DNA from: Cyanobacterium stanieri PCC 7202
Lineage (GTDB): Bacteria > Cyanobacteriota > Cyanobacteriia > Cyanobacteriales > Cyanobacteriaceae
NCBI GenBank assembly: GCA_000317655.1
Contig: CP003940.1
Coordinates: 2,241,547 to 2,305,546, forward strand
Direction: 5' to 3'
Length of the DNA stretch: 64,000 nucleotides
Part shown: positions 37,840-39,050 of the stretch, in pieces
How positions within the stretch are numbered: position 1 is the stretch's first letter
How the letters are laid out: every line of letters starts with the position of its first letter
Made by a program: the position numbers and the translations under genes
The notes under the pieces: model-generated
Told to the model about the DNA's origin: nothing
What the model saw: the letters and a program-made list of their open reading frames with translations, nothing else
Databases searched by the model: none

Positions 37840-38679
37840 CTAGTACACCTCAACGTGCCAACGATCTTCTTTCTTCATTTGCTTACGCATCTCATCCCAA
37901 TTCATCCCTCTTTTCTCCGCTTCAGCGGTAAAGGTTTCAGAAATAGGAGGTTCCATACCCTTCAAACCACACATATAAACGTGGGTATTAGGTTTCTGGA
38001 TCAACTCGAATAATTCGTCAGCATATTCGCTTACACGGCTTTGAACATACATTTTGCCACCATCTTCGGTTTTTTGTTCCCGACTGATAGCATAGGTTAG
38101 ACGGAAGTTATCAGGATATTCCTGAGCCATTTTCTCTAATTCTTCTTTATAAAGAATATTTTGAGTGTAAGGAATACCAAAAACTAACCACGCTAAACCT
38201 TTAAACTGATAATCAGGATTTAACTCTCTTTCTTTGAACATACGCCATAAAAAGGCACGGAAAGGAGCAATTCCAGTACCAGTCGCTAACATAACGATGG
38301 TTGCATCTTCATCATCAGGTAAGAGCATCTCTTTACCTACAGGGCCAGTAATAGCTACATCAGCCCCTTCATCTAGGTTACAAAGATAGGTGGAGCATAC
38401 ACCTTGTATGGTTTCTCCCTCTTCGTTTTGGTACTCTAGTTGACGAACACACAAAGAAACTGTCTTGTCGTCTAGTTTGTCACCGTGACGGGTGGAGGCG
38501 ATGGAGTAAAGGCGTAACTTATGGGGTTTACCTCTGTCATCTTCTCCAGGGGGAATGATACCAATACTTTGACCCTCTAAATAGTGTAAGTCACCACCAG
38601 AAAGATCAAATGTCAAATGGCGTACAGTACCACTACCGCCTTCGGCAACAAGTTCGTAATTTTCAATACATTTGCCCAT
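37840..38679 (-). CDS. petH: Ferredoxin-NADP reductase catalytic part (PetH)
   Basis: Flavoenzyme that passes electrons from ferredoxin to NADP+ at the thylakoid. FAD binding is seen in [12 protein letters not shown] and [13 protein letters not shown] binding in [15 protein letters not shown] and VYMCGLKGM, and the C-terminal tyrosine (WHVEVY) is present. ATG 38679 gives the short form ([11 protein letters not shown]), matching the internal start that yields the small FNR isoform in Synechocystis. The same frame stays open upstream to the A7 run at 38725 ([15 protein letters not shown]), so full PetH would need a minus-one shift from the CpcD-like frame 38718-39050. No Shine-Dalgarno site precedes 38679. 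Confidence 0.9.
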
Positions 38680-38717
38680 AAAAGGATTTTTAGGACGATA
38701 TATATTGACGGGTACTT

Positions 38718-39050
38718 TTACCTCTTTTTTTCCTTTTTGTCTTTAGCTTGAGTCATGGGTTGATTGTTCGTAGTTGTTTCAGAACTTGAACTTAGACTTT
38801 TAGCTTGAACAGGGGTATTAATACCGATGGGGGTAATGTTAACAATTTTCCCTCCAAGGCGATTAATCCGAGTCATTTCCTGATTCATCCGAGAATAGGG
38901 AACGGCGATAAAGCTGGTTCCACTCTGACGAATAGGATAGTCTAAATTATTACTTCCTTGTTGAGAAATTCCAACAACCTCAAAGAGGAAACGACGTTCT
39001 TCTATTGCAGGGTTGTTGGCAAAGGTTTTTACTGTATTAAATTTTTTCAT
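38718..39050 (-). CDS. petH: CpcD-like N-terminal domain of PetH, in a separate frame
   Basis: 110 residues carrying the phycobilisome-linker (CpcD-like) domain that normally forms the N terminus of cyanobacterial PetH and attaches it to phycobilisomes: [14 protein letters not shown], then [13 protein letters not shown] and [13 protein letters not shown] Ser/Thr/Gln/Lys-rich linker follows and ends KDKKEKKR at TAA 38718. In normal petH the linker continues into [12 protein letters not shown] of the reductase; here that continuation is in the minus-one frame. AAGGAG precedes the ATG. It may be translated alone, or joined to FNR if the frame is restored. Confidence 0.85.
38724..38730 (-). other. 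A AAA AAG slippery heptamer inside petH
   Basis: In the linker frame the codons are GAA AAA AAG AGG TAA. The heptamer A AAA AAG is the type used by E. coli dnaX for minus-one frameshifting, and such a slip leads exactly into GAG GTA AAA GTA CCC of the FNR frame. A 4-bp stem (GGTA/TACC) lies just after it; no stronger stimulator is seen. A lost A would look the same. Confidence 0.5.

Follow-up and report, generated by a model that had tools for sequence, protein, structure and literature searches.

Does the petH gene of Cyanobacterium stanieri PCC 7202 require a ribosomal frameshift, or does its published sequence lack a single letter? The genome is a single contig of 3,163,381 bp, in which the gene is divided into a CpcD-type linker frame and an FNR frame. 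An earlier note on this DNA proposed three causes for the split: a missing A in the assembly, a true mutation separating soluble FNR from its phycobilisome anchor, or programmed frameshifting. We analysed a stretch of 64,000 nucleotides (contig CP003940.1, positions 2,241,547 to 2,305,546), hereafter called the window, to which positions refer unless another locus is named, and compared it with related genomes.

The two petH frames and their junction

The 5′ part of petH is a frame of 110 amino acids (38718–39050, minus strand), ending with AAA AAG AGG TAA. It matches Pfam PF01383 (CpcD) with 82.7 bits and NCBIfam rod_cap_CpcD with 105.3 bits, and covers positions 8–112 of the model bifunc_CpcD_PetH. 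The 3′ part (37840–38742, minus strand) is open from 38742, with homology to relatives beginning at approx. 38739 and its first ATG at 38679. It matches Pfam NAD_binding_1 with 102.5 bits and covers positions 108–405 of bifunc_CpcD_PetH. Thus, open reading frames and Pfam profiles bear out both frames, including the in-frame ATG, as the earlier note had delineated them. Further, intact PetH proteins of relatives match the window in two frames which overlap at a run of A bases, in agreement with the proposal that the two frames are pieces of a normal PetH. Scored against NF058510, the pieces reach 93.8 and 604.5 bits, each below the cut-off of 635 bits for a one-protein fusion of CpcD and FNR, whereas the intact protein of one relative (L003) reaches 710.8 bits.

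Between the two frames, the register changes by one base within a run of seven A (38725–38731, minus strand), which has eight A in the two nearest relatives according to the alignment. In the zero frame of the linker, the site reads GAA AAA AAG AGG TAA and contains the slippery heptamer A AAA AAG (38724–38730, minus strand) of the type X XXY YYZ ahead of the stop codon, confirming the position and frame given for it before. However, the stop does not follow three codons later, as had been claimed; a single sense codon (AGG) separates the heptamer from TAA at 38720–38718.

A further small CpcD gene (39073–39381, minus strand; 104.6 bits against rod_cap_CpcD) is located directly upstream of petH. 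Its open reading frame, profile match and tree position identify it as a tandem duplicate of the linker domain of petH, separate from the break. In a tree based on 61 columns only, all nine tandem free-linker copies form one group (93/92) among the petH linkers of the family. Nine of 15 genomes carry the tandem copy and have no other small CpcD match except an ApcC-like one; for one of them (G001, 63% complete) not even the latter was listed. Without the tandem copy, three genomes (G005, G007, G010) have a separate small CpcD match of 87–104 codons, and for three (G006, G009, G012) neither was listed. It looks as if the petH linker had been copied to replace cpcD. In G012 (locus L013), the petH frame from position 1111 begins with the leader of the free linker, NQEYIKDMR, and no free copy was found in the 1.1 kb upstream, which looks like a tandem pair collapsed by recombination. 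Between PCC 7202 and G004, FNR has a synonymous divergence of 0.36 and the adjacent free linker one of 0.76, compared with 0.10 in the petH linker (38757–39050, minus strand); the low value of the petH linker possibly reflects a recent recombination tract between the lineages.

Conservation of the junction, the heptamer and the internal start

FNR was searched in 40 genomes, i.e., PCC 7202 and 39 relatives. A match was found in 39 of these, none with a stop inside the FNR part, and linker and FNR share one frame of at least 387 codons at 28 of 29 loci of relatives. The remaining locus (L022 of G037, 1393–2337) has a petH frame of 314 codons starting near the motif MTQAK and no linker frame was found in it; it may be an FNR that is naturally short only, or else a further break. 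When the search was extended to 291 genomes of the order, 290 had a match, and among the matches listed only PCC 7202 showed an internal stop. No PetH relatives were found in the viral contigs searched.

The two nearest relatives (L003, L004) are 96% identical in FNR and have one open petH frame of 407 codons. Their junction reads CAA GAA AAA AAA GAA AAA AAA GAG GTA, and the junction of PCC 7202 is the same stretch minus one A in the last run, plus a few substitutions. The break therefore lies in a homopolymer which is one base longer in intact relatives (seven versus eight A). An in-frame A AAA AAG within 25 codons before the FNR domain occurs in none of the 27 relatives with an extractable junction (L027 and L030 were dropped as the motif was unmatched). 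Neither the heptamer nor the interruption of the linker-FNR frame is thus conserved in the way expected of a programmed site. The earlier suggestion of programmed frameshifting that sets the ratio of long to short FNR fails by the note's own standard, since both nearest relatives have eight A, an uninterrupted petH and no heptamer.

The heptamer itself is no evidence for programming, as the loss of one A from GAA AAA AAA GAG automatically yields GAA AAA AAG AG. In matched genes, A AAA AAG was counted in frame 24 times per 325,791 coding bases in PCC 7202 and 24 times per 326,268 in G003, the nearest complete relative. At approx. one per 13.6 kb, a single occurrence is weak evidence. A stem-loop can form 15 nt downstream of the heptamer, and the 74 nt after the heptamer fold with a z-score of −2.76, but the first 44 nt alone reach only −0.62 and a 116-nt segment including the heptamer −1.07. 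The stem also folds in the two nearest relatives, whose petH needs no shift. Of its 21 pairs, 20 are kept in L005 and 18 in L007, both congeners, and 8–17 in other relatives. The fraction of synonymous-codon shuffles (n = 300) that were equally stable was 0.060 for L002, 0.030 for L003 and 0.070 for L004, so that the stem is not clearly above background. The Shine-Dalgarno-like GAGGT after the heptamer corresponds to Glu-Val codons of the relatives. Programmed frameshifting with evolved stimulators was rejected based on heptamer conservation and these folding tests. Within the literature collection searched, no paper combined petH with ferredoxin-NADP and frameshift, or petH with Cyanobacterium stanieri.

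Two FNR isoforms are described as products of a single petH, the short one arising from a second translation start (PMC9319322, PMC3691600, PMC9144156, PMC4143364), and according to one of these reports, cyanobacteria without a second methionine in the petH ORF lack the smaller isoform (PMC3691600). In PCC 7202, the likely internal start of short FNR is the ATG of the motif MTQAK (38754–38756, minus strand), whose position is conserved in relatives. It belongs to the linker frame and precedes the break, and a ribosome starting there reads 12 residues and then meets the stop codon. We take this ATG to be equivalent to the FNR-S start of Synechocystis, Met-113, which is at the same place. Since the conserved start is upstream of the break, the break would disable both isoforms and both would need the shift. 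For the same reason, setting their ratio by frameshifting is unsupported.

The earlier note had instead placed the short-isoform start of other cyanobacteria at the ATG of 38677–38679 (minus strand). This in-frame ATG exists and encodes the Met of NPFMGK, but 22 of the 24 relatives shown in the alignment have V or I instead, whereas the ATG at 38756 is conserved; 38679 was thus ruled out as the start of the short isoform. Judged by the alignment, it is inside the catalytic part of FNR, 12 residues past the start of the conserved VPVNIYRP block, and no Shine-Dalgarno-like sequence was seen upstream of it on inspection by eye.

A real break would affect a single-copy gene: at E ≤ 0.001, NAD_binding_1 matches nothing but petH in the genome of PCC 7202. 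Cyanobacteria are stated not to survive the deletion of petH (PMC9319322). The linker and FNR of PCC 7202 show no clear decay. FNR has a dN/dS of approx. 0.04. Pairwise linker values are 0.32 and 0.26 between PCC 7202 and its two sisters and 0.16 between the sisters, resting on few non-synonymous changes (7, 10 and 3). A single amino-acid change of the linker falls on the PCC 7202 branch versus three on the stem of the two sisters. Relaxed selection on a detached linker was considered, and the few changes give no clear sign of it.

Further frame breaks in the assembly

To judge petH against the rest of the assembly, 864 kb of PCC 7202 were compared with 1.6 Mb of G003 (contig of 3,155,247 bp). 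In a first screen, 472 ORFs of G003 matched over 325 kb and gave eight split cases, four of which are clear gene breaks in PCC 7202: petH, a glycosyltransferase, dndC and an ORF of 172 codons, the last of which was visible here through its antisense shadow only. Of the other four, two lie upstream of a start, one is antisense or intergenic and one runs across a dissimilar stretch. The reverse comparison of 496 ORFs gave six split cases; one is a shadow of the 172-codon ORF, which is intact in G003, and the remaining ones are, as far as judged, located upstream of starts, antisense, at gene ends or in repeats. Once such antisense shadows had been taken out, a second screen of 358 and 360 genes flagged 15 in PCC 7202 and seven in G003. 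Interior stops in PCC 7202 were again those of the glycosyltransferase, dndC and the 172-codon ORF, besides one antisense case, and the other 11 flags are stops at most 15 residues from one end or the other. petH was not flagged here because the G003 stretch used begins inside petH. No break was confirmed in G003 when the 360 PCC 7202 genes were compared with it, the flags being near ends, in an adjacent gene or in repeats, apart from one case. This is a 106-residue ORF of PCC 7202 (L164, 2989–3339, minus strand) with 62% identity to a G003 stretch containing an interior stop (L215, 6908–7162), which may be a small gene that is broken or may not be a gene.

All three additional breaks are at 7-base runs of A or T. 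The gene of the PMT_2-type glycosyltransferase is broken at CC AAAAAAA TAG (L153, 18679–18685; genome approx. 2140225–2140231, minus strand) and is one base short at the sense A run; its G003 homolog is one frame of 550 codons. dndC, encoding a DNA phosphorothioation sulfurtransferase, is likewise one base short at a sense A run, within a pair of 7-A runs (L164, 707–721; approx. 2406253–2406267, minus strand), and is intact in G003. The 172-codon ORF, without a Pfam match, carries an extra base in a sense T7 run (L170, approx. 1245–1251; approx. 2526791–2526797, minus strand). Including petH, there are thus four breaks in approx. 325 kb of matched genes, three with a base missing and one with an extra base. 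Homopolymer miscalling is expected to produce just such errors, of either sign and in A as well as T runs. The earlier note had referred to a second gene with the same defect, but none was found in the window over the 46.7 kb which match relatives at >65% identity (four ORFs of more than 130 codons lie outside this part). The two other split cases of the window are an antisense or intergenic ORF and a trivial overlap, and the three further broken genes are located elsewhere in the genome.

A general shortage of long A runs was considered as proof of bad base calling and is weak. Matched genes contain 61 sense-strand A8 runs in PCC 7202 and 61 in G003; A/T runs of at least eight bases are 16% rarer in the compared part of PCC 7202 (Fisher p = 0.11), and three of 64 expected A8 runs were lost in PCC 7202 versus none of 61 in G003 (p = 0.24). 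A sense-strand bias towards A as proof of ribosomal slippage was discarded, too. These genes contain 61 sense A8 runs but only 8 T8 runs to begin with, and the fourth break is at a T run, so the bias is uninformative. A mechanical screen for indels at homopolymers that restore a frame gave 98 cases per 464 kb in PCC 7202 and 138 per 800 kb in G003; such matches also arise between neighboring genes, and homology was used instead. As a side observation, several copies of repeated elements in G003 (L039 7140, L182 5079, L186 7192; L040 7852, L053 14258, L186 6220) have two frames meeting at a 9-A run and may be insertion sequences using slippage on A runs. The four breaks have nothing but their position in 7-base A or T runs in common; with their differing signs they fit miscounted homopolymers in one assembly better than a rescue by −1 slippage, although real indels at mutable runs would look alike in the four genes.

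Explanations of the break and comparison with known systems

Taken together, petH is probably intact in the living strain, and the assembly appears to be one A short in a homopolymer of eight. The strain would have eight A where seven are printed at 38731–38725, and the apparent split, the heptamer and the stop codon of the linker would all be by-products of the missing letter. The difference of seven versus eight A, the intact relatives, the origin of heptamer and stop from the loss of one A and the other homopolymer breaks are observed; from them we infer that the file, rather than the cell, lacks the letter. On the other side, long A runs are not generally scarce in the assembly, the loss of three A8 runs does not reach significance on its own, and the linker dN/dS of PCC 7202 exceeds that between its sisters, albeit with few changes. 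The missing A, which the earlier note called the simplest of its three options, is hence the best supported one, owing to the eight A and the uninterrupted petH of the nearest relatives, but it is not proven, and a real mutation of the culture would look identical in the file.

Such a real deletion, recent in the strain or the sequenced culture, might be tolerated if slippage of the ribosome or RNA polymerase on the A run yielded full-length PetH, which we regard as unlikely but as the main rival explanation. It would be corrective frameshifting of a problem indel rather than an evolved regulatory device. Seven A bases are short for transcriptional slippage. For the ribosome, the heptamer A AAA AAG is reported to shift far more readily in E. 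coli than other heptamers of A or U, and the same source recognizes the correction of indels by frameshifting as a class (PMC5009743). The glycosyltransferase also has A AAA AAA in its broken frame, as does dndC provided that the second of its A runs is at fault, and no decay is seen downstream of the breaks. However, the enzyme is essential, and its long and short forms alike would hinge on a shift without a recognizable stimulator. Nor does −1 slippage on A runs unite the broken genes, given the surplus base in a T run of the 172-codon ORF. Its fuller version, in which the seven A are real, long and short FNR are made only via −1 slippage, unshifted ribosomes produce a second free rod-cap linker, and dndC and the glycosyltransferase are rescued as well, strikes us as highly improbable.

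Even less credence is given to a real deletion after which re-initiation at the ATG of 38679 supplies short, unanchored FNR only, with loss of the phycobilisome-bound form and two free linkers remaining. This ATG is in frame, 38 nt past the linker stop, and a Synechococcus 7002 strain with short FNR only, under the cpcBA promoter, is reported to grow under normal conditions (PMC9319322). Nevertheless, a start at 38679 would cut off the block [VI]P[VT]N[IL]Y[RK]P, found in 24 of 24 relatives shown and included in the range matched by solved cyanobacterial FNRs. The frame of the conserved short start is the wrong one, inspection by eye shows nothing resembling a Shine-Dalgarno sequence ahead of 38679, and the linker lacks clear decay. 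Least credible of all is −1 frameshifting evolved in petH to set the ratio of linker to FNR. The in-frame heptamer and the possible stem-loop with its 74-nt z-score are in its favor; against it stand the absence of the heptamer from all 27 relatives with their uninterrupted petH, its automatic origin from A8, the poor folding of the 116-nt segment, a stem which is shared with two non-shifting relatives, fades with distance and does not clearly exceed the synonymous-codon background, and a GAGGT explained by Glu-Val codons. A “programmed frameshift” in petH is thus probably not real, and whether the A is missing from the file or from the cell, the evidence is against an evolved, conserved one.

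Should only the file lack the base, a complete reference genome misrepresents petH, a central photosynthesis gene, and probably three other genes, and PCC 7202 would be counted wrongly in work on FNR domain architecture or on dnd genes. If it is truly absent, an essential photosynthesis enzyme would rely on slippage of the ribosome, a very unusual situation.

Among known systems, E. coli dnaX shares A AAA AAG in the zero frame with the petH break (its use in dnaX is described in PMC5009743), but the petH heptamer has no specific downstream stimulator that we could find and is not conserved in relatives. The anatomy also differs, as a shift in petH would presumably rescue one full-length protein instead of making a second product. 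PCC 7202 resembles assemblies with homopolymer indel errors in its one-base miscounts at A/T runs, affecting four genes in approx. 325 kb, whereas its overall run-length spectrum is close to that of G003. Compared with cyanobacterial petH (NF058510/NF045929), the two pieces comprise the same two domains in the same order with the conserved internal MTQAK, in a frame that differs by the interruption of one base.
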